Source: a virus
Strand: one strand, 5' to 3'
Virus record (IMG/VR): IMGVR_UViG_3300037264_000448
Span: 1-29,707 of that record
DNA: 29,707 bases
The notes beneath the pieces were generated by a model. That model was not told the origin of the DNA, did not search any database, and saw nothing but the letters and a program-made list of their open reading frames with translations. Of the stretch, positions 9,613 to 28,138 are shown one piece after another. Both the position numbers and the translations under genes were made by a program. The stretch's first letter is position 1. Each line of letters starts with the position of its first letter.

Positions 9613-10344
9613 GTGACAACATTGGCTGATCAATGGATAGATGTTTCGGGTTATCAAAATCCGGCCAAAATGAGCTGGCACGTTTGGGGTATTCCCCGAG
9701 GCCAGTATCGGTTATTTCTAGGAAGACGTCTTGATCCAACTGGACCTCTTCATCGTATCAATATGCGTCAGGCAGGCATGTTGACCGGTTCATATGCCGT
9801 GCCGGTAGAATACGCCCGAATCGTCGATCAAGCCTGGGCCTGGGTTGACGCTATCCCCGACGACGACGAAAACGACGACTGGGTAGACGCTGAACGGGCG
9901 TTACTGACTGAGGCAATGCTAGATGCTTATTGCAGTACGTACGATCAACGCTCGACGCGGCAGCGGCTTGCGATGTATACCGGCTGGCCGTGGTGGATGA
10001 CACACGTCGTAGCTCTAGGTCGACAAGAACGTTATGCGCGTTATCCACTCATCATCGCAGCCTATCCGTTTGACACTCCTGCCGGCCAACCTGTGCCAAT
10101 GGACCCTGTGTCGGTCGCGCTTCGTTCCAATCCACCTATGAACCGTCGCCCACCCATTCCCCCACCGTGGACTATCGAGTCGGGTTGGCAACACTCTGGT
10201 CAAGGAAGCAAGTCAGGCTATCCTAGGTTTCTGGACCACGGTATCTACCAAGTCAATCCTGGTACCCAACCGCTTAGTAGCACACACCTAGACAGAATTA
10301 TGGATAGTGTCGTAGCGATCGAAGCGGAGTTAGGAGAGGAATAA
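9613..10344 (+). CDS. GH25-like lysozyme (putative endolysin)
   Basis: GH25 lysozymes cleave the MurNAc-GlcNAc bond of peptidoglycan. The product starts with WIDVSGYQ (residues 8-15), the typical GH25 first strand with its catalytic-site Asp (D10), and has WVDAE at 90-94, matching the family's D-x-E catalytic pair. A barrel-like run of strands follows, and a final WQHSGQG ... GIYQ segment resembles the last barrel strands. At 243 residues it is a single-domain enzyme without a clear separate wall-binding domain. The start is GTG with a weak ribosome binding site. The stop overlaps the ATG of a second hydrolase. A tail-associated lysin is also possible. No holin is recognised nearby. Confidence 0.6.
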   Translation: MTTLADQWIDVSGYQNPAKMSWHVWGIPRGQYRLFLGRRLDPTGPLHRINMRQAGMLTGSYAVPVEYARIVDQAWAWVDAIPDDDENDDWVDAERALLTEAMLDAYCSTYDQRSTRQRLAMYTGWPWWMTHVVALGRQERYARYPLIIAAYPFDTPAGQPVPMDPVSVALRSNPPMNRRPPIPPPWTIESGWQHSGQGSKSGYPRFLDHGIYQVNPGTQPLSSTHLDRIMDSVVAIEAELGEE

Positions 10345-11621: not shown

Positions 11622-11994
11622 CATCGTCCTCAACGATAATGACGGGTTCCAACTTTTCGGCATGTAGAAGTACCTTTAGCTGATACGCCAAGCCGCGCCG
11701 TTTAGCTCTATCAGTCTCTCTCGAGTAACCAAGCGCTAAACGCAGCTCTTGCTTACGCGTATCAGCTAAAGGGTACTTCAATAATACCAAGCACGCCCTC
11801 TTCAGATCAACTCGTTTAGCTATCGACACGTCGTATATCTTCTTGTGCGGTCGGACGTTAGCAGGTAAGCGACGTGCAATATAGTCTGCGACTACATCCT
11901 CAGACACGTAAAAGTGCATATGCACGTAGCCTTGGTACGTGACGAATAGGTGCCCACGCTCTTCGTATATACTACCCAACGTTACATTAATCAT
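11581..11994 (-). CDS. Hypothetical protein, 137 aa, downstream of the polymerase
   Basis: ATG at 11994 overlaps the polymerase stop by 8 bases; this start is chosen over longer non-coupled ones. The product is a mixed alpha/beta protein with a basic middle and no catalytic motif I can name. Residues 80-110, with a KYPLADTRKQELRLALGYS stretch, faintly recall the region after the motif in LAGLIDADG-type proteins, but no LAGLIDADG motif is visible, so I do not assign that family. It is the last gene of the minus-strand block, and its end lies antisense to the SH3 region of the plus-strand lysin. Confidence 0.5.
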   Translation of the reverse strand: MINVTLGSIYEERGHLFVTYQGYVHMHFYVSEDVVADYIARRLPANVRPHKKIYDVSIAKRVDLKRACLVLLKYPLADTRKQELRLALGYSRETDRAKRRGLAYQLKVLLHAEKLEPVIIVEDDVTVVASLSTSDPH

Positions 11995-14434
11995 CAGTCC
12001 ACCCGCCACTAGAGTCAATCGGATGCAGTGAACCCCAACGTTCACCCGCCTCAGCTTCAGCTTTCCATACAACTTCAGGGAACCACTTAGTTGCGGTATC
12101 TCTCATGTACCACGTCGTTTGAAACGCAACGTCTTTGACGTCTTCAGGACGACACTCTAAAACAATTGAGTCATGCACAAGCATCAAGATGAAGGCGTCC
12201 CATTCATGACTCCTAATTGACTTTTCGACTGCCAATGCTGACAATGTTGTCATGTGAGACGCCGAACCTGCGATGGGTGCATTGAACGAAGCTTTACGTG
12301 CCTCGTCGTTATTTGCATGTGAAATGTAGGGTATACGACGACGGAATCCTGTACGATATTTGATGTAGCCTTTCCGCTGCATTTCCACAAACGATTCACC
12401 CTTCCACGTAGTTAGTCGCGGCATCAACTTGTTATACTCTTTCACGAACTCGGAAGCGACCGAAACAGGCAATCCTGCATCCATAGCGAACGAATACTCT
12501 GAGCCTCCGTACAGGTAACTGAAGTTGAACATCTTACAGTGTACTCGATCCTCCTTTGTGAAGTTGAGTCCAAACATCGCCTTAGCTACTTCAGTATGTA
12601 GGTCGCGTCCATCTGCGTACACCTTCAACAGGAAGGGTTCACCCGACAAAGCAGCTGCGATGCGAAGCTCTGCCTGCGAGAAGTCACAAACCAAAAGAGT
12701 GTAACCTTCGTGTGCTACGAACGAATCCCTAATCACTTTAGACCACGGACTCTCGTAAGGCCGTGGCAAAGTCTGTAGTGCAGGATCGGCAACTGATATT
12801 CGACCGTGCTCGGTACCATGTTGTTTGACGTCGCAGTGTGTATTACCCTCCTCGTCCAACGAACTTAACACAACGTCGATGTACGATGACTTGAGCTTAG
12901 CTAGTTTACGGTGTGCTAGCAACAAGTCGATCGCAGGATGTTTGCCTCGTAGTCCTATTAGTACTTCGTGATTAGTAGAGTTTGATTTAACCTTACGACT
13001 CTTAGGCCGTGGCATCTTAAGAGTGTCATAAATGTACCCTGACAGTTGCTTCGGCGAGTTTAGGTTTTGTACCTCGCCCTTGCTCATGCTAACAAACTCT
13101 TTGGTGATTCGGTCTAACTCCTTCTCGAATACGCCTTGTTGCGACGACAAGTAGGGTGCATCTACCTGGAAACCGCGTAGTTCCATTCGAACAAGCATCT
13201 CGTCGAACGGCATCATCATCTGCTTGAACGGCATATGGTACTGCCCCGACTTCTTAAGCAGTTCTTCCAACACGAACTTGAGATGATAAGTGCAGTAACC
13301 GTCCCACGCAGCGTACTGGCAAATCACCCTCCACGGGATCTTGTTGTAGTAGTCGTTCTTGCTACGAAGATACTTCTTCAACGACACTTCGTAGTCCGCA
13401 ATGTTTAGGTAACGAGCTGCGAGTCCTTTCAGGTCGTGTGTGCCTTTCCTTTCATCTAGGACGTAGTGTGCTAGCATCGTATCAAAATCTACGTGGGCCG
13501 GATGCAATAGAAGGGCCCTTAGGAAGCGAACATCAAACTTGCCGTTGTGCCCAACAAATTCGATAGCAGCACACTCCCAAAAGTCTTTCCACTCCTGCTT
13601 CATCGTCTCACGAGTGCCGTATAATAAATCAATCGGCGCTTCTGGATGCCTTCCAGGGATTATATAGGTCTCCTCGATGCCATTGACTTTCGTGTACAAC
13701 ACAAGCAATAGGATATCGTCGTAGAGCCAGTTGACTTGCGTAGTTTCTATATCGAACGCTACCACAGAATTCGCATTGGCACTGAGTCTCTGAAGTACGT
13801 CACGTAGATCCGCTTCAGTAGCAATGACATTGTATATTGGCTCCGCCGGGAGTTCTTTGGGAGGTGTGCTATGAACGAATTTCTTCAGGTCGTCAATCAT
13901 CGTTCGTGCATCGTCTGGCGACCGTAAGATGAATGCGGGGTGATAAGTAGAGAGGACGTGTCGATCCTTAAACACTGGATTCTGACTCCAACGTCCGTGA
14001 AGAGTTGTAAGTGACTCACCTTCAGATAAACCGAAGAATGCCTCACGAGCAGTTTTGCCTAACGCTAAGATCTTGGATGTTTGCGTCTGACTAATCTCAT
14101 TACGCAAGCGGCCTGAACAACACATGGCTGCTGCAGCGAGTACTTCTTCCTTCTCTTCACGTTCTGTTGGAGGCGAGCAGAGTACTGTATTCGTAACGTT
14201 ACACTGATCACGAGTAACGCCTAGCTGTGCTAACGTTGACCAAAGCATCTTCCCTGAATAACCCGTGAAGCCGGGTTTCTCTTCGCCGTTCTCGGCATTA
14301 CGTACTTCGTTCTGACCCGGCGACTCTCCAACGATCCAATACTCCGCGTTCGGTTGAATCGGATCGCTAGGAACGAGTCTAGCCGACTTTAGAGGACACG
14401 CAGCACAATTGGCGAAAGGTACTTTCGGTTCCAT
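11987..14434 (-). CDS. Uracil-DNA glycosylase / 3'-5' exonuclease / family A DNA polymerase fusion
   Basis: A replicative polymerase of about 815 residues. Residues 1-190 form a family 4/5-type uracil-DNA glycosylase: GESPG at 37-41, the FTGYSGKML loop and TYHPAFILR at 163-171, plus likely Fe-S ligands C10, C13, C86 and C105 or C106. A DEDD exonuclease follows: D228/E230, N297-D301, and Y374 with D378. The polymerase domain has TEHGR, motif A CDFSQAEL (D584), motif B R630, K634, F638, Y642, and motif C H754-D755. The usual HDE of motif C is HDS here. ATG 14434 lies 2 bases after the preceding TAG; a TTG at 14524 is an alternative. Phe at 638 equals E. coli F762. The glycosylase domain may excise uracil or recognise it during synthesis. 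Confidence 0.92.
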   Translation of the reverse strand: MEPKVPFANCAACPLKSARLVPSDPIQPNAEYWIVGESPGQNEVRNAENGEEKPGFTGYSGKMLWSTLAQLGVTRDQCNVTNTVLCSPPTEREEKEEVLAAAAMCCSGRLRNEISQTQTSKILALGKTAREAFFGLSEGESLTTLHGRWSQNPVFKDRHVLSTYHPAFILRSPDDARTMIDDLKKFVHSTPPKELPAEPIYNVIATEADLRDVLQRLSANANSVVAFDIETTQVNWLYDDILLLVLYTKVNGIEETYIIPGRHPEAPIDLLYGTRETMKQEWKDFWECAAIEFVGHNGKFDVRFLRALLLHPAHVDFDTMLAHYVLDERKGTHDLKGLAARYLNIADYEVSLKKYLRSKNDYYNKIPWRVICQYAAWDGYCTYHLKFVLEELLKKSGQYHMPFKQMMMPFDEMLVRMELRGFQVDAPYLSSQQGVFEKELDRITKEFVSMSKGEVQNLNSPKQLSGYIYDTLKMPRPKSRKVKSNSTNHEVLIGLRGKHPAIDLLLAHRKLAKLKSSYIDVVLSSLDEEGNTHCDVKQHGTEHGRISVADPALQTLPRPYESPWSKVIRDSFVAHEGYTLLVCDFSQAELRIAAALSGEPFLLKVYADGRDLHTEVAKAMFGLNFTKEDRVHCKMFNFSYLYGGSEYSFAMDAGLPVSVASEFVKEYNKLMPRLTTWKGESFVEMQRKGYIKYRTGFRRRIPYISHANNDEARKASFNAPIAGSASHMTTLSALAVEKSIRSHEWDAFILMLVHDSIVLECRPEDVKDVAFQTTWYMRDTATKWFPEVVWKAEAEAGERWGSLHPIDSSGGWTDD

Positions 14435-14436
14435 AG

Positions 14437-14682
14437 CTAAAGCTTTATCGCAACAACTGACAGGTCCGGTAAGTTCGTGAATCCTAGCGGCGTTAGCATT
14501 TGGAGTGCTTCGACGTTGGTGCAAATGGTGCTCACGAGAGAGACACGCATGTCCTTAAGTGTGCGGAGTACTAGGCGTAGACTTTCTAAATCGTCGAAGC
14601 GCATGATGATAGCCATGTTAGCTTCGCGAGTAATGACAGCGACGCACGTCTTGTTGTCTTCAGTCGTGAAGGTTAGGTACAT
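14437..14682 (-). CDS. Hypothetical protein, 81 aa
   Basis: Sits between the MazG-like gene and the polymerase. Its ATG lies 23 bp inside the MazG gene, and its TAG is 2 bases before the polymerase ATG. The product has two or three beta strands at the N-terminus (YLTFTTEDNKTCVAVITRE), a helix near residues 30-45 and a closing hydrophobic strand. This is a compact alpha/beta fold without any motif that I recognise. A shorter start at the internal ATG 14616 is possible. Tight spacing on both sides is the main support. Confidence 0.55.
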   Translation of the reverse strand: MYLTFTTEDNKTCVAVITREANMAIIMRFDDLESLRLVLRTLKDMRVSLVSTICTNVEALQMLTPLGFTNLPDLSVVAIKL

Positions 14683-14980
14683 GTGCTTCCAGCTTTCGGG
14701 TTAGCTTGTCAACCAAAGCATCCAGAGCATCGACGCCTTCGACTTGACCTGCTACGATTAGCATCATGATAGCGTCACCTAGTTCTTCGCCAAACTTTTT
14801 CTTGTCCCATTCAGGATGTGTGTCAGGGTTGTTTCTCTTCCAACCACCTTCACGAGCAAGAAGAAGTTCGTACGCTTCACCCATCTCAGTAGTTGCCCAC
14901 GCTAAGTTCTGCCATACGTTACTTTTCTTGAGGTCACGTATGACGTAGTAACGTTGGATGTATTCTCCAAGTTCGCTCAT
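14660..14980 (-). CDS. mazG: MazG-like nucleotide pyrophosphohydrolase
   Basis: MazG enzymes hydrolyse (d)NTPs or ppGpp to monophosphates plus pyrophosphate. In this 106-residue protein the metal-binding pattern is clear: the E-x-x-E motif sits in TEMGEAYELL (helix 2) and the E-E-x-x-D motif in FGEELGDAIMMLIVA (helix 3). A short WKRNN insert lies between the helices. The length fits the single-domain phage MazG type. The gene starts 2 bases after the folE stop (TAG-CT-ATG), so it belongs to the deazaguanine/polymerase operon. Possible roles are shaping dNTP pools or blunting host alarmone signalling; the sequence does not tell which. Confidence 0.85.
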   Translation of the reverse strand: MSELGEYIQRYYVIRDLKKSNVWQNLAWATTEMGEAYELLLAREGGWKRNNPDTHPEWDKKKFGEELGDAIMMLIVAGQVEGVDALDALVDKLTRKLEAHVPNLHD

Positions 14981-14982
14981 AG

Positions 14983-15663
14983 CTATAATCCAGCCAATCG
15001 GAAGAACTCGTCACGAGCAGCAGGTACATGTAGGTAGTTGCCGAGTAGTACCGAAGTTGTCATCTCAGCTCCGACCTTACGAATGCCGCGAGCGCCCATG
15101 CACGTATGTGACGCCTTCATCACGACTGCGACAGCAACAGGGTCAAGCCACTTATTTAGATACTCAGCGATTTGATGCGTTAGCTCTTCCTGTGTCTGTG
15201 GCCTCTTAGCGAAGAATTCGATGAGTCGTGGAACCTTCGATACTCCTACGACAACGTTATTAGGGATGTAACCGACATAGGCTTTACCCATGAATGGAAG
15301 GAGGTGGTGTTTACAGATGCTCGCAAACTCAACGTCACCCACGACGACCTGCGACTTGCTAATAGCAGGGAATGTGGTGAACGCGAAATCTGGTTCTGTT
15401 CTGGGAGCATACTCTTCCAGGAAGCCTATAAAGCGTTCAGCCGTTCGGAGGACATGGTCGTCCCATTTATAATCTGGAAAGACCTCCTGGAGTATAGCGA
15501 CCATGTGGTCAGTCGCGTCAAAGGAGCTTGAGGGCTCCGTGTTCAGGGATGAGGTTTTGTCTCCAACTCGACTCTCTGTAGACCGTCCCCGAGCGACCCG
15601 TATAGTACTCTTCTCTGTAGACCGTCGCCGAGTGACCCGTATAGTACTCTTCTTGCGTGGCAT
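14983..15663 (-). CDS. folE: GTP cyclohydrolase I (FolE)
   Basis: Converts GTP to dihydroneopterin triphosphate, the first step of the preQ0 pathway. Family motifs are strong: SICKHHLLPF with Zn-binding Cys and His, GKAYVGYIP, VVGVSK, the RPQTQEELT stretch and ASHTCMGARG with the second Zn Cys. ATG 15663 is chosen because a GAGGA site lies 6 bases upstream and the queE stop is 8 bases before it; a start at 15696 would overlap queE. The product has 226 residues. The first 45 or so are a basic, Ser/Thr/Arg-rich tail containing a perfect-register 13-residue duplication, absent from ordinary FolE. The enzyme is cytosolic and feeds QueD. Confidence 0.95.
   Translation of the reverse strand: MPRKKSTIRVTRRRSTEKSTIRVARGRSTESRVGDKTSSLNTEPSSSFDATDHMVAILQEVFPDYKWDDHVLRTAERFIGFLEEYAPRTEPDFAFTTFPAISKSQVVVGDVEFASICKHHLLPFMGKAYVGYIPNNVVVGVSKVPRLIEFFAKRPQTQEELTHQIAEYLNKWLDPVAVAVVMKASHTCMGARGIRKVGAEMTTSVLLGNYLHVPAARDEFFRLAGL
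15574..15651 (-). repeat. Two 39-bp tandem repeats in the folE N-terminus
   Basis: Units 15574-15612 and 15613-15651 differ at 2 of 39 bases. On the minus strand they encode KSTIRV-x-R-x-RSTE twice. The length is a multiple of three, so the frame is kept. The near identity suggests a recent duplication of a basic N-terminal tail. Confidence 0.92.
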
Positions 15664-15671
15664 GGTTATCC

Positions 15672-16481
15672 TCACACTCCAGCTTTCTGCCCCCAAACTA
15701 GTGTATGTAATTGCGGTAAAATACGGAAGTCACGGAAGCGGTGAAAGGGATCGTCAAGTGTAGCCAACCAGGTACGACTCAAGTTCTTACACACCTCGAG
15801 TCGAACTGCTTCGATCTGATCGAGATCTTCAGGAGAATCGTTAATGATCTGAAGTGGTGTACCGACGGACAAAAACCATTGTACGTCCTCAACGACCATC
15901 ATGCCTTTGTAGAGTCGGTGTTGTTCGGATACAATCTCCATGTGACGGAGATGACACCAATCGAGATCTTCCGCGTTGAAGGCAACGAATTTGACTGCGG
16001 TTACTTGAGAGGACATGCGTTCGTAGAGTAGGTCTATGACGGTTTCAAGTTTGAACCTGGTATGCATACCTGACGATGGTGGTTTTGGTGAAACAACCAG
16101 ACATTCGATGTCTTGAGACACGTGGTCTTTGAGGTCGACAGATCCTTGCGTCTCCATTGCAAGACGGAAACCTTGCGTGTGGACAAGCTCATCTACAAGC
16201 GCTTCGTCCACAAACAAAGCTGGATTGCCGCCGGACAACGTAATCCAGTCGTCGCGTGAAGCACCTTTAGCTCTAAGCGATTGACCGATGTATTCTGCTG
16301 TCATCATCTTCTTGTGCCACCCAGGATACTTTGGTAGGACTGCGTACTTGGTATCACACCACGAACAATCCCAATCACATCCTGCAAAGCGTAGGAAGTA
16401 GCACTGTAGACCAGCTTGCGGCCCTTCGCCCTGCCTCGTAGGCCCAAACAGTTCCGAGATAGGATACGTATGGTCAGGCAT
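15672..16481 (-). CDS. queE: 7-carboxy-7-deazaguanine synthase (QueE), radical SAM
   Basis: QueE rearranges 6-carboxytetrahydropterin to 7-carboxy-7-deazaguanine using S-adenosylmethionine and a [4Fe-4S] cluster. The radical SAM CX3CX2C motif is intact in GCDWDCSWCDTKYA. Also visible are the N-terminal LFGPTRQGEGPQAG motif, LSGGNPAL, the METQGS strand, VSPKPPSSGM typical of QueE, and a closing PQLHTLVWG. At 269 residues it is slightly longer than minimal QueE; the extra length is mostly between the SPKP motif and the C-terminus. The ATG lies 8 bases before the end of queD, so translation is probably coupled. Confidence 0.95.
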   Translation of the reverse strand: MPDHTYPISELFGPTRQGEGPQAGLQCYFLRFAGCDWDCSWCDTKYAVLPKYPGWHKKMMTAEYIGQSLRAKGASRDDWITLSGGNPALFVDEALVDELVHTQGFRLAMETQGSVDLKDHVSQDIECLVVSPKPPSSGMHTRFKLETVIDLLYERMSSQVTAVKFVAFNAEDLDWCHLRHMEIVSEQHRLYKGMMVVEDVQWFLSVGTPLQIINDSPEDLDQIEAVRLEVCKNLSRTWLATLDDPFHRFRDFRILPQLHTLVWGQKAGV

Positions 16482-16920
16482 AGATAGCTCCTATAAACTC
16501 GGCGTACGTCTTTGGCGTTTCACTAACGATAACGCCTATCAAAGTGATACGTGCACCTTGGTTAGGTAAATTGTCGACAACGTGCTTCCAAATGTGCCAT
16601 GCGAGGTTCTCGGACGTGGTACGTATGCCTACGTCGTAAATCTTACTGGGTGCATTCCATGCTGGTTTAGCCGGCTCATGGCCTTCGGCTATGAACGAGT
16701 GATCCATCGCGTCGATCAACGGCTTGACGACGGCGTCGAGGTCGGCGTAGTCGAGGAGCATACCGTTACTAGATGCTCCTGGATAATACAACTGTTCGCC
16801 TTTCAGCCACACCTCGACGACGTAGGTGTGGCCGTGTAAGCTGGCACACTTGCCGTTATGTCCTACGAGTTGGTGCGCTGCATCAAAGCTGTAACGCTTA
16901 CCTATCTTAACTGTTGTCAT
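16474..16920 (-). CDS. queD: 6-carboxy-5,6,7,8-tetrahydropterin synthase (QueD)
   Basis: QueD turns dihydroneopterin triphosphate into 6-carboxytetrahydropterin. The Zn-binding histidines are visible in FDAAHQL and LHGHTY, and the catalytic Cys sits in GKCASLHGH, as expected for QueD rather than a Cys-less pterin synthase. Other family motifs are LLDYADLD, DHSF, RTTSENLAWHIW and VSETPKTYAEF. ATG 16920 gives 148 residues, close to the family size; a longer start at 16965 would lie inside the upstream zinc-binding gene. The gene overlaps that upstream gene by 14 bp and queE by 8 bp. Confidence 0.95.
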   Translation of the reverse strand: MTTVKIGKRYSFDAAHQLVGHNGKCASLHGHTYVVEVWLKGEQLYYPGASSNGMLLDYADLDAVVKPLIDAMDHSFIAEGHEPAKPAWNAPSKIYDVGIRTTSENLAWHIWKHVVDNLPNQGARITLIGVIVSETPKTYAEFIGAIYA

Positions 16921-17098
16921 TTGTCTGACTCCTTTGCTCGAAACGAGTAACGTACTCCTTACCACATTCGGGACACGTACCTCGTCGAACTACTAAGCCA
17001 TAGATACTTAACTCGTAGTCTTTATCAAGGTACAAAGTTACTGGACCGTGAGGCTTATCTTTCGTACCGTGACAAATGGTAAATGAGTTATGTTGCAT
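16907..17098 (-). CDS. Small zinc-binding-like protein between queC and queD, 63 aa
   Basis: ATG 17098 overlaps the queC stop by 11 bp, and the gene overlaps the queD start by 14 bp, so it is placed inside the preQ0 operon with full coupling. The 63-residue product has a Cys-His pair near residue 9 (TICHGTKDKPHG) and a C-x-x-C knuckle near 42 (RGTCPECGKEYV), a likely zinc-binding pattern, then a charged tail. I do not recognise a named family. Its position suggests an accessory role in preQ0 synthesis or delivery, which is inference only. A longer start at 17164 would run far into queC and is less likely. Confidence 0.65.
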   Translation of the reverse strand: MQHNSFTICHGTKDKPHGPVTLYLDKDYELSIYGLVVRRGTCPECGKEYVTRFEQRSQTNDNS

Positions 17099-17873
17099 CG
17101 TCGTTGAACGGGACGCAATCTTCCCAGTCGATCTCTTCGTCGTTCGCATACTCGATCGGATCAACCCAACCGTTCACTTGAAATGCTTCAACGCGCTCAA
17201 CGCAGGTCGGACACTTGCCACAAGCGATTCGACGCTCGAGATGGCCTTCGATGCTACTCGGCTCGGTTTCGTCAACGACGACGGGAGCGTAGCACGACCA
17301 GGTTAGATTGACAGGTACACCTAACACGTGAGCAAGTACGACGATGTCCTTCTTCATCATCCATTGGAACGGTACCTTCAGACGAACCTTGTGGTAGGTA
17401 CCAACGAATATAGCTGCTGCGAACGGTCCTAGAAACTCAGGTGTACAATCGGGGTAGGCGAACCCTCGTGCGTCTTCGGCATGCATTCCCGCATAAACCC
17501 ATTGTGCATCGTTAGTAACCGCGACGGATGTTGCGAGTGAGAGTAGATTCGCGTTACGGAAGGGAACTACCGTTGGTGATGGGCCGACGCCTTCGGCGAT
17601 CTCTCTGTAAGTGAGCTTCGGCATCTCCACTTCATCCATCAAAGCACTGCTAGCTCCTTTAAATACGTCCGGAAGCTCGTAGAAGAAATACTTTAGATCG
17701 TGACCATTCTCCTTGTACCATGCCACAAGGTCTTGCGCTGCTGTAATTTCAGCATCGGCATGCTTAGCACCGTAGTAAGCGCCGACTGCAATAACCGAGT
17801 CGTTCTCAGATAGTGCCAACGCGAGAGCGGTAGCTGAATCAAGGCCACCACTTAGTAGTACGACTGCTTTCAT
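17088..17873 (-). CDS. queC: 7-cyano-7-deazaguanine (preQ0) synthase QueC
   Basis: QueC converts 7-carboxy-7-deazaguanine to preQ0 with ammonia and ATP. The N-terminal PP-loop is intact (VVLLSGGLDSATALA). Family motifs follow: VPFRNANLLSLA, AGMHAEDARGFAYPDC, and a C-terminal zinc site in SCY ... CGKCPTC-x-ER-x-EAF with four Cys. The ATG at 17873 is chosen over 17906 because AGGAG lies 7 bases upstream and the first residues MKAVVLLSGG match the family. The product has 261 residues, with a short acidic C-terminal extension. No glutaminase-type amidotransferase domain is fused, so preQ0 itself is the predicted end product. The gene starts 23 bases after the primase stop. Confidence 0.95.
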   Translation of the reverse strand: MKAVVLLSGGLDSATALALALSENDSVIAVGAYYGAKHADAEITAAQDLVAWYKENGHDLKYFFYELPDVFKGASSALMDEVEMPKLTYREIAEGVGPSPTVVPFRNANLLSLATSVAVTNDAQWVYAGMHAEDARGFAYPDCTPEFLGPFAAAIFVGTYHKVRLKVPFQWMMKKDIVVLAHVLGVPVNLTWSCYAPVVVDETEPSSIEGHLERRIACGKCPTCVERVEAFQVNGWVDPIEYANDEEIDWEDCVPFNDDAT

Positions 17874-17895: not shown

Positions 17896-20457
17896 TCATT
17901 GGTCAACTTTAGGGAAACGGAATGTGACTTCTTTCCAGTTGATGTGGTTAGGTATATCTAATCCCCCTTGTGACGCTGCAACCAGGTCTATGCCGTACAT
18001 CCACGTACCTTCAATCGTCTTTGCTTTATGTATGTACTGACCTTGACCACCGCGAGCAATATCTCGTTCTACTAGCTGGGTACGAATTGCTTCGCGATCG
18101 AGCGTCGTTTGCCGTGCCATATTTCTCTGTCGTAACCACCACTGAAACGCCGTTGCTAACTGAAACCAAAGAACGCCTTGTTCTGTATCAACAGAAGTAC
18201 GAAAGCTGGAGTAATTACTACTTGCACCTGCTACAGAATTAACCACCGCTTCGCAGAATTCATCAGCTAGAGTTGCGCCTCTTCCGAGTTCTGGGGACCA
18301 AACCGATCGTAGAACAGGCTCAAAAGTTTCTCTGACGTTAATGTTGAACGTGCCACGATACTCTGGGGTGTTATTGAATTCGGAAAGAGCCAAAAGCCCT
18401 GCTCGGACGACCACGAGATTGTTGCGTACTCGGTCCGGTAGAGCCATAGGAAAAGCCTCAACAATTTGTCTACGACTTTCAGCAAGTAGATCATCGATCA
18501 TGTCCGGAGTGTAGGATAAGGTATGCTGAATGTAGGGTTTCGCAAAGTTCTCGAGCGGTTCCGCATATACGCCATTGAATGCCGCATAACAAGTCGTACC
18601 CTCCGCGATAGTCTCTGGATGTAATGCGACAGCAATAATTCTTTCTCGGCATGCGGCATCGTTGATGATATCTTCGCCATCCACAGAGAATGGGGCAGAG
18701 AGGGGGTAATCCACCGTAGTTTGATCACCCCGACCTCTGGCGTCGTGTCCTGTGTCGTATGCCAGTAGTACGAACCGGATGAACTTTTCAGCAATACTTC
18801 CGCGAAACTCCGAGAACGCGACCGGTACCGCATTTGAGCTGCCAAGGATCGATAGGATAACGTAGTTCGTCGTCGTAATGTTGTAGGCGGCCGTCTTTTC
18901 ATAACCCAACATCCTTTGACAAAGTCGAATGAGTGATGTCTTACCAGAGCCACGTGTTCCATAAAGGTTTAGAATTGGGAACCGGATGTTTCGTGCTTCG
19001 AACTCTGTCTTGAAAGGCGTCGCTACAAACCATCCTAGGATCGGGAGAACCACTTCGGGTGCGTTGACCAGGGGTAGCTGGGTAAGATTTGGTAACGGCG
19101 GTGCCAGATCGTCTCCAGTAGAGACTCGGAATCGGATGTGAGGAGACTCGCGACCGGTAGGATTATAGACGAGTGGTCCTTCAGCACCAGACCATATAGT
19201 CTCTGCATCCATGGTTTGTCCAGTTCCCACAAAATACTTTCCATGTCGCCCAAGGACAGAGGTGGCCTTAGAACGAGGAAGTCCTTTATCTTGGAGTTTA
19301 CGAAGCAAATAAGGTAAGAGCAAGCGGACGTGATCATCTTTTCCAAGCCAGACGTGGGCACTTGCTCCAAGGTACTTGTCCAAACCTCTTCGATCGTTAA
19401 AGGCGGAGCGTGGGAGTCTAAAGTCTGTCCAGACGTAGCCGTTTGAGTTAATAGTCCCGACAAGTACGTCTTCGGTACCACCAGTCGGTCGTTCAAGTTC
19501 AAGCAACAGTTCTGGTTCGTAAAGAAAGGTGCTAAGACGGAACGTTCCCTTACTTCCTTCAAGATAATAGCCGTCTGGCCCCTCAATGACGTTACTGCTA
19601 CCCCCACCGCCCGGTGGTCGACCACGCTTACGAACGACTTGAACGTTTCGGGATCGATCCCTGACGGCTTCGATAGTATGTGCAAGGTAGTCCTCTGGCT
19701 TCGGCGTTCGTGGATCTCTAAATTTATCTCCGACAGGCTGCGTTATGAAGAGCTGTCGGATAAGTCGGTCATCGGCACCCGCAATGACAAGAGATTCAAT
19801 AACCGCCCAATCACGTTCTGATCTTGACTTATAACCACGTGAATCTCCGGTCCTAATTTTGTGACGCGGTTTATCGCTAAGGAGCTGGAGTATAGCAAAA
19901 TCTCCTTGTTTGTAAATAACTGGACGAGACTGTCTAAGTTCTGCAATGTCGCTGCCCAGGTCATATTTGGAATTTCGGGTTCCGGGAATACGAAGGAGAC
20001 GGTTAGCATTCCAACAACTGTCGGCATATGTATCCTCTGCTAAGGCTTTGTTCGATGCCTCAATAGTCTCGATAGAAGTACACCAATCGTCGAGAAGCCA
20101 GTATAAATGCCAACCACCACCAGACCACACAACCAAAGAAGGTGGAAACGTGTATAGAAGTTGTTGTCCCGGCTTCCAGTTTTTGAGATCGATGTCGACC
20201 CAGAACGCTCTAGTACCATAGACATCTTCCTTTGTGCTTCCGGCTTTGTTACGTAGTGCTACACCGAAGAATGTGTCTTCGACAGACTTGTCGACTAGCG
20301 ACTGTGTTACTAATTCAACATCTCTCGGATTAATGAACGTACGATGTATTTCACCATTGCCGTTGCCGTTACCGTTGCCGTTACCGCTGCCGTTACCAAT
20401 ACTAGTAATTTCGACGAACGTACCTTCTGGTGCTTTTTCAAAAAGTGCATTGAACAC
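17896..20457 (-). CDS. Primase-polymerase / P-loop helicase, 853 aa
   Basis: A bifunctional replication protein. The N-terminal archaeo-eukaryotic primase domain shows the catalytic Asp pair in FWVDIDLKN (87-90), the SGGGWHLYW motif (112-120) and NRLLRIPGTRNSK (152-164). A basic linker near 275-286 contains KRGRPPGGG, an AT-hook-like core. The C-terminal half has a Walker A in LYGTRGSGKTS (499-509) and a Walker B-like VAFSEFRG, consistent with a replicative helicase. Residues 21-35 are a Gly-Asn repeat. The start is GTG with AAGGTG about 8 bases upstream. A 94-bp gap with a strong hairpin precedes the gene. It probably primes and unwinds for the family A polymerase downstream. Confidence 0.85.
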   Translation of the reverse strand: MFNALFEKAPEGTFVEITSIGNGSGNGNGNGNGNGEIHRTFINPRDVELVTQSLVDKSVEDTFFGVALRNKAGSTKEDVYGTRAFWVDIDLKNWKPGQQLLYTFPPSLVVWSGGGWHLYWLLDDWCTSIETIEASNKALAEDTYADSCWNANRLLRIPGTRNSKYDLGSDIAELRQSRPVIYKQGDFAILQLLSDKPRHKIRTGDSRGYKSRSERDWAVIESLVIAGADDRLIRQLFITQPVGDKFRDPRTPKPEDYLAHTIEAVRDRSRNVQVVRKRGRPPGGGGSSNVIEGPDGYYLEGSKGTFRLSTFLYEPELLLELERPTGGTEDVLVGTINSNGYVWTDFRLPRSAFNDRRGLDKYLGASAHVWLGKDDHVRLLLPYLLRKLQDKGLPRSKATSVLGRHGKYFVGTGQTMDAETIWSGAEGPLVYNPTGRESPHIRFRVSTGDDLAPPLPNLTQLPLVNAPEVVLPILGWFVATPFKTEFEARNIRFPILNLYGTRGSGKTSLIRLCQRMLGYEKTAAYNITTTNYVILSILGSSNAVPVAFSEFRGSIAEKFIRFVLLAYDTGHDARGRGDQTTVDYPLSAPFSVDGEDIINDAACRERIIAVALHPETIAEGTTCYAAFNGVYAEPLENFAKPYIQHTLSYTPDMIDDLLAESRRQIVEAFPMALPDRVRNNLVVVRAGLLALSEFNNTPEYRGTFNINVRETFEPVLRSVWSPELGRGATLADEFCEAVVNSVAGASSNYSSFRTSVDTEQGVLWFQLATAFQWWLRQRNMARQTTLDREAIRTQLVERDIARGGQGQYIHKAKTIEGTWMYGIDLVAASQGGLDIPNHINWKEVTFRFPKVDQ
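20353..20397 (-). repeat. In-frame 6-bp repeat coding Gly-Asn
   Basis: About seven units of a 6-base repeat near the primase 5' end encode GNGSGNGNGNGNGNG (residues 21-35). Because the unit is two codons, copy-number change would lengthen or shorten a flexible linker without a frameshift. Confidence 0.9.
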
Positions 20458-26857: not shown

Positions 26858-27266
26858 GTTTGAGTGCATCCTTTCTATGTTCACCTACAGGGAGTTCTGA
26901 CAATCCAAGACGTTCGAGCAAAAGTTGATTGGATATTGCTTTCATGTCACTCGGGTTTTGATACATGAGGGTAGCCCCAAGTAAGGCAGCGATGATCTCG
27001 ATTCGGCCACGAACCACTGCAGCCATCTGTTCTTGATTTGTTTGGTACTCGGCCTTACCTGCGAACAGTCGCCACTTCTCAATTACAAAGATGCCGGCTT
27101 GCCAGTCCGCAAGGGCCGAAATTTCTACCTGTCTCATGTACCAATCCGCCAAAGTAGAAGGATCGTCATCGAACTCGTGCGTGTGAAGTACACGAATGGT
27201 ATGTTCGTCGTATTCAAATCGGGCATAGCCGGTCGTTACACCTGGATCCCACGAATGTAGTATCAT
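26769..27266 (-). CDS. RuvC-like Holliday junction resolvase
   Basis: The RNase H-like fold of RuvC is indicated by the first-strand Asp in SWDPGVTTGYA (D7), Glu in FVIEKW (E63) and the C-terminal H-R-K-D-A pattern in EHRKDALKHGL (H130, D133). At 165 residues it matches RuvC length, with a basic tail (LRRSVKGSRTS). It probably resolves recombination or replication junctions before packaging. The ATG overlaps the DpdA stop (ATGA), so the two are translationally coupled. The 3' end overlaps the following membrane-protein gene. Confidence 0.8.
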   Translation of the reverse strand: MILHSWDPGVTTGYARFEYDEHTIRVLHTHEFDDDPSTLADWYMRQVEISALADWQAGIFVIEKWRLFAGKAEYQTNQEQMAAVVRGRIEIIAALLGATLMYQNPSDMKAISNQLLLERLGLSELPVGEHRKDALKHGLYNWLRWRDRLRRSVKGSRTSDVRRGY

Positions 27267-28138
27267 TTATTCCAATCAATTCTACTGTTCGTAACGAACT
27301 GTTGAGAAAGCCGCATACTTAGATAGTCTACATTAGCCATTACTGAAGGAGGCCATGCCAACTCTGCTCCTATCAGCAGTTGTGACTTATCCTTAAAATT
27401 ACCCAAGAAAGGTACTAAAGTGTCGAAGGGCTCAATCTTATGTTTAAATTGTGCAGCAGCAACTGGGAGAGAGGTGTCCCACGATCGAATGCGTTCGCCG
27501 TAAAACATTTCGTTGGCTCCACCCCAAACGCCAAGCATGTGCACTTTGTACTGTTCAGGGACAAGTTGAATGGCACGTAGGCGTGCCTGAGGACTATAAC
27601 TCTCGAGCACTTTGGGGATGCCTACAACTTGGAACATGTCGCCGAACTCTCTAATGCCTGCTATGAGACAATTTTCCCATTCCTGTAGAGAAAGACCTTG
27701 TGGAATGAACATGAATCGGGGATCGCGATCCTGGTTACGTAGCGAATATAATTGTGGGCCGCACGCGTCAAGGAAGTTGAGAGCTGAGATTAGGGTACCG
27801 TGTGCGTCCTGAAAGACGTCAGGAATAACCACTTCTTGCGGTTGTAGTTCTTGGATGACGTCGAAGAACTGTTTAACTGTAATATGGACGTTGCTATCAG
27901 GTGCACCAGTTGAGATGTGTTGCCAGTCGAGGATAGTAAACGCTGCGCCATGACTTACATCAACGGTAGGTTCGCCACCGCCACGAATTAGATCGTACCA
28001 TATTGCGTCAGTTACGATCTGATAGACGTGTCTGTACAGAGGGTATCGAACGTACCAGGCAGCCTGACAAAGGTGTGCATCACCTAAGAGGGTCCAATGA
28101 GGTTCTTGCGGTGGCGCTACAACGATGAGTTTAGTCAT
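27263..28138 (-). CDS. dpdA: DpdA-like 7-deazaguanine DNA transglycosylase
   Basis: DpdA proteins are relatives of tRNA-guanine transglycosylase that exchange guanine in DNA for preQ0 or a derivative. This 291-residue protein shows the family landmarks: VVIPDVFQD (Asp 107 and 111), MFIPQGLS (143-150), VVGIPK (171-176), VHMLGVWG (199-206) and IRSWDTSLP, where D221 is the likely nucleophile. It lacks the C-terminal zinc site of the tRNA enzymes, as phage DpdA types do. A complete preQ0 gene set on the same strand, 9-13 kb away, strongly supports the call. There is no Shine-Dalgarno; the ATG overlaps the upstream stop (ATGA), so expression depends on coupling. Sequence specificity cannot be read. 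Confidence 0.82.
   Translation of the reverse strand: MTKLIVVAPPQEPHWTLLGDAHLCQAAWYVRYPLYRHVYQIVTDAIWYDLIRGGGEPTVDVSHGAAFTILDWQHISTGAPDSNVHITVKQFFDVIQELQPQEVVIPDVFQDAHGTLISALNFLDACGPQLYSLRNQDRDPRFMFIPQGLSLQEWENCLIAGIREFGDMFQVVGIPKVLESYSPQARLRAIQLVPEQYKVHMLGVWGGANEMFYGERIRSWDTSLPVAAAQFKHKIEPFDTLVPFLGNFKDKSQLLIGAELAWPPSVMANVDYLSMRLSQQFVTNSRIDWNK

Follow-up and report, generated by a model that had tools for sequence, protein, structure and literature searches.

The preQ0 gene block

The window, by which we mean the whole stretch of DNA analysed here, is a linear virus record of 29,707 bases (IMGVR_UViG_3300037264_000448) and is probably part of a tailed-phage genome. The closest complete relatives of this phage have genomes of 52.9–69.9 kb, so that the window represents about half a genome, and genes lying beyond it may therefore be missing from the inventory given below. 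Tail-type genes occupy the plus strand, and the minus strand carries a replication block holding the preQ0 genes, which in minus-strand reading order are queC, a small ORF, queD, queE, and folE (14983–17873). The queD and queE genes overlap by 8 nt, a gap of 8 nt separates queE from folE, and Shine-Dalgarno-like sequences lie upstream of the starts of queC, queD (AAAGGAG), queE, and folE.

The four biosynthetic genes are real, intact, and tightly ordered. As judged by profile and structure matches, queC (17088–17873) encodes a 7-cyano-7-deazaguanine synthase of 261 residues (Pfam QueC, 1.2e-46; PHROG 1550, 1.4e-59; PDB 2pg3, 7.1e-16), queD (16474–16920) a 6-carboxytetrahydropterin synthase of 148 residues (Pfam PTPS, 4.6e-30; NCBIfam QueD, 2.1e-24; PDB 4ntm, 8.3e-9), queE (15672–16481) a radical SAM 7-carboxy-7-deazaguanine synthase of 269 residues (NCBIfam TIGR03365, Bacillus subtilis-type QueE, 1.6e-49; PDB 5tgs, 2e-35), and folE (14983–15663) a GTP cyclohydrolase I of 226 residues (Pfam GTP_cyclohydroI, 5.7e-48; PDB GTP cyclohydrolase, 4.5e-34). 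All four score somewhat under the strict NCBIfam cut-offs, and are thus divergent members of their families. An initial annotation of this DNA had proposed a folE-queE-queD-queC operon and an HMM search as a check on it; the Pfam and NCBIfam profiles, the PDB matches, and the coordinates bear the operon out, with each of the four genes matched far above chance.

That annotation had also described the key motifs as intact, which holds for FolE (C-x-H-H and H-x-C-M, the zinc ligands being present in alignment to solved structures), QueD (KC..LHGH and MDH, the catalytic Cys and His aligning with those of 4ntm and the zinc His being present), QueE (CX3CX2C, present as CDWDCSWC in alignment to a solved structure), and the SGGLDS, VPFRN, YPDC, and CY motifs of QueC, but overlooks two departures in QueC. 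The canonical YxQxHxxE reads YGAKHADAE, in which the tyrosine is kept, the glutamine is replaced by alanine, and one residue is extra, and the zinc motif has the spacing C(x)23CxxCxxC in place of the canonical C(x)8CxxCxxC. The four residues found essential by mutagenesis in Escherichia coli (Y35, R99, Y131, and Y189; PMC13329287) are all retained in the window QueC, and the YxQxHxxE glutamine is not among the mutated residues reported in the available text of that paper.

Between queC and queD lies a putative gene of 63 codons (16907–17098, minus strand) with one CPEC knuckle, for which a Pfam scan gave no match above cut-off, phage searches gave no relative (best E about 2), and IMG/VR gave a single match over 21 residues. 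The initial annotation had counted this extra zinc gene and the polymerase fusion of the window among possible novelties, and neither can be upheld: the former is a tiny ORF with no convincing relatives, and the fusion also occurs in Brevundimonas phage vB_BpoS-StAshley, in the IMG/VR record L067 (IMGVR_UViG_3300009604_000029), and in SPO1-like phages.

The DpdA-like transglycosylase

The gene at 27263–28138 (minus strand, 291 codons), about 9 kb upstream of queC, had been suspected to be DpdA-like. No Pfam model matches its product. A weak match leads to a gene lying among the preQ0 genes of Bacillus phages, and when the protein is compared directly with its counterpart in Weizmannia phage Youna2 the two match at 5e-8. 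Single-sequence searches of IMG/VR with this protein and with QueC returned no relatives, and profiles were required. An AlphaFold2 model built from 39 sequences was confident (pLDDT 81.9, pTM 0.82; a single-sequence model, with pLDDT 39.8, was discarded), and in a Foldseek search of the PDB the best 50 matches listed were all tRNA-guanine transglycosylases (TGT), with a top E value of 4.3e-7. Matches in the viral library included annotated queuine ribosyltransferases and a 464-residue protein of Vibrio phage nt-1, the same length as the described nt-1 DpdA2. The suspicion is thus confirmed by the TGT fold of the model and by the company of preQ0 genes described below. A profile search of PDB sequences gave chance matches only, and when the family was compared by profile with DpdA1 and DpdA2, represented by two sequences and by one, respectively, nothing emerged, those profiles probably being too shallow.

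In an alignment with 44 relatives, D71, D107, and D221 are invariant and are retained in the window protein, as are the likewise invariant R186, H200, L202, and G203; P106 of the P106-D107 pair is also kept. The three aspartates are probably equivalent to D102, D156, and D280 of TGT. The window protein alone has LDWQHISTG in place of the loop LDNSxxELG, and so has lost E76, N72, S73, and L77, which are conserved in 44/44, 42/44, 43/44, and 42/44 of the relatives, respectively. An alternative placement of the loop, on TVDVSHGAAF, was rejected in view of the even alignment between GAAFTILDWQ and the GDFVILDNS of the relatives. The protein also forms a long branch, is only about 20–25% identical to members of the family, and falls outside the clade that contains Campylobacter phage CP220. 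The enzyme could be inactive or changed in specificity.

Relatives and gene neighborhoods

Genes for preQ0 synthesis adjoin members of this DpdA family in most of its IMG/VR relatives. With the family profile, 15 of 15 loci had preQ0 genes within 10 kb, and in a wider set of 41 distinct loci with shorter flanks at least one core preQ0 gene was found in 23 and queF only in 6 more; as a background, QueC occurs in 267 of 50,697 phage records (0.5%). The queF genes belong to the clade on the side of Flavobacterium phage immuto and the Campylobacter phages, and are absent from the polA-linked relatives nearest the window.

Among cultured phages, Youna2 and the Bacillus phages BSTP12 and BSP7 carry the same DpdA family and share with the window a matching order of helicase, exonuclease, Sak4-like ATPase, primase, queC, queD, queE, folE, and polA, although their proteins are only about 25–42% identical to those of the window. 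Their DpdA proteins retain LDNSxxELG, whereas that of the window does not, and their dpdA adjoins polA, as it does or nearly does in StAshley and in the polA-linked IMG/VR relatives, whereas in the window it is displaced. StAshley resembles the window in having queC, queD, queE, and a DpdA-family gene, there adjoining a uracil-glycosylase/PolA fusion, and differs in having folE about 7 kb from dpdA and a canonical DpdA motif; its proteins are about 27–40% identical to those of the window.

Also in the family are the annotated DpdA of immuto and, from the Campylobacter phages CP220, CPt10, CP21, and IBB_35, a protein that carries no such annotation. The immuto and CP220/CPt10 proteins share the invariant Asp, His, Gly, and Arg residues with the window protein, but belong to a different clade and to far larger genomes, and immuto, unlike the window, carries QueF and a formyltransferase-like gene. 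In CP220 (L074) the gene lies at 11995–12771, where it is annotated as a 'hypothetical phage protein', and its product, 44% identical to the immuto DpdA, may be the enzyme responsible for the total replacement by dADG reported for that phage. A subfamily DpdA3, said to have been named by Cui et al. in 2023, reportedly permits complete replacement, and the complete replacement of G in CP220 suggests, as a lead only, that the window/CP220 family may be DpdA3. In CP220 and CPt10, 100% of dG has been reported as replaced by dADG (PMC8306585), the DNA of Campylobacter group II phages is cut efficiently by enzymes with AT-only sites (PMC4546147), and in a survey of 2019 the Campylobacter phages were grouped with phages that have pathway genes and lack DpdA (PMC6884629). 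The present results join the CP220-type transglycosylase in one family with those of Bacillus, Weizmannia, Brevundimonas, and many uncultured phages, and such a single family makes base specificity directly testable.

Proposed pathway and identity of the base

A full GTP-to-preQ0 pathway, encoded on one strand with a transglycosylase of the DpdA type, supports the prediction, made in the initial annotation, of 7-deazaguanine-modified phage DNA, and the window adds a divergent member to the systems already known by which phages modify their DNA with 7-deazaguanines. We consider it highly probable that the phage makes preQ0, or its amide 7-amido-7-deazaguanine (ADG), from GTP, swaps it for guanine in its own DNA, and in this way blocks restriction enzymes. 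FolE would convert GTP to dihydroneopterin triphosphate, QueD would convert this to 6-carboxytetrahydropterin, QueE would form 7-carboxy-7-deazaguanine, and QueC would take the latter through ADG to preQ0; through the transglycosylase, preQ0 or ADG would then take the place of guanine in the phage DNA, and the new bases, lacking N7, may block host restriction enzymes. In this way a known anti-restriction strategy would extend to a deeply divergent phage lineage.

As for the base itself, phages that carry a DpdA with FolE, QueD, QueE, and QueC, and in which no amidotransferase or QueF is found, have dPreQ0 in their DNA (PMC6884629). CAjan and Rosebush are such phages, and in CAjan dPreQ0 disappears when dpdA is lost, with restriction enzymes becoming effective again (PMC6884629). 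They share this minimal gene set with the window, although their DpdA proteins come from other subfamilies with no recognizable sequence similarity to that of the window. Searches for QueF and for a GAT-type amidotransferase found neither of them in the window, the complete genomes of Youna2 and BSTP12, or the nearly complete stretch of StAshley, which favors preQ0; the assessment of ArcS was limited to Pfam scans of the window genes and the annotations of the relatives. Weak matches to QueF, seen in the window and in both BSTP12 and Youna2, proved to be their FolE genes, which share the T-fold. The earlier conclusion that the base is preQ0 itself nonetheless goes too far, since the window is incomplete and ADG fits as well: preQ0 and ADG are both consistent with the sequence evidence. 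That the same system inserts chiefly ADG, possibly at very high replacement, is somewhat unlikely but deserves weight, since the DpdA family includes the CP220, CPt10, CP21, and IBB_35 proteins, dADG is reportedly total in CP220 and CPt10, ADG is an intermediate in the QueC reaction (PMC13329287), and the window QueC deviates from the canonical motif; set against this are the low identity of the window DpdA to its family, its place outside the CP220 clade, and the dPreQ0 of CAjan and Rosebush.

The remaining alternatives appear less probable. A QueF, a formyl- or methyltransferase, or an ArcS encoded in the unsequenced part of the genome could process the base further, to preQ1, archaeosine, or another derivative; a linear fragment about half as long as related genomes leaves room for such genes, and queF does lie near dpdA in immuto and many IMG/VR relatives, but its confinement to the immuto/Campylobacter-side clade, and the lack of QueF or GAT-type domains in Youna2, BSTP12, and most of StAshley, make this improbable. 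The loss of the otherwise invariant E76 and its neighbors, the long branch, and the displaced position could mean that the window DpdA is a decaying or repurposed paralogue, the working enzyme being encoded elsewhere in the genome or by the host; the full-length frame of 291 codons, the retention of all other invariant residues including the three conserved aspartates, and the confident predicted fold make this quite improbable. It is very unlikely that the genes instead stimulate tRNA queuosine or folate metabolism in the host through a DpdA-like protein that does not act on DNA: folate synthesis also uses FolE, phages lacking DpdA may work in this way (PMC6884629), and the DpdA loop of the window is divergent, but the transglycosylase family is tightly linked to preQ0 genes, DNA modification is reportedly total in CP220 and CPt10, and Q-specific enzymes were not seen in the window.

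The paired changes in near-invariant pocket motifs, YGAKHADAE in QueC and LDWQHISTG in DpdA, might mean that the system has moved to another 7-deazaguanine base or mode of insertion, and that the window represents a functionally distinct branch of the transglycosylase family, which we regard as a doubtful though conceivable outcome. A window DpdA with a rewritten near-invariant loop offers a natural test of the residues that set the choice of base.

Other genes of the window and its relatives

The polymerase fusion of the window (11987–14434, minus strand) joins a family-4 uracil-DNA glycosylase to a family-A DNA polymerase (Pfam UDG, 1e-20; DNA_pol_A, 3.3e-79); its coordinates are counted from an ATG, with a possible TTG start upstream at 14524. 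Immediately upstream of queC is a primase-like replication protein (17896–20457, minus strand; PHROG 10514, 1e-11) that is 37% identical over 838 residues to a protein of L045 (IMGVR_UViG_3300031539_002757). This record is close to the window's replication block, with dpdA between primase and polA in the order exo-sak4-primase-dpdA-polA; preQ0 genes were not found within its 8 kb.

Adjoining folE is a weak candidate for a MazG-like pyrophosphohydrolase (14660–14980, minus strand; Pfam MazG E 0.036, under the cut-off, with ExxE...ExxD recognized by eye), and genes of the MazG-like or pyrophosphohydrolase kind likewise lie close to the preQ0 genes of immuto and L067. The gene at 9613–10344 probably encodes an endolysin belonging to glycosyl hydrolase family 25 (E 3.6e-5, just under the Pfam cut-off). 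In L067 (5857–10438), and also in L064 and L065, a DpdA-family gene with the motif MDNGVVETG has queD, queE, and a phosphoribosyltransferase-FolE fusion upstream of it, and directly after it come an adenylosuccinate synthase gene and then a uracil-glycosylase/PolA fusion. For the synthase gene of L067 an identity as PurZ was rejected, because it scores as PurA.
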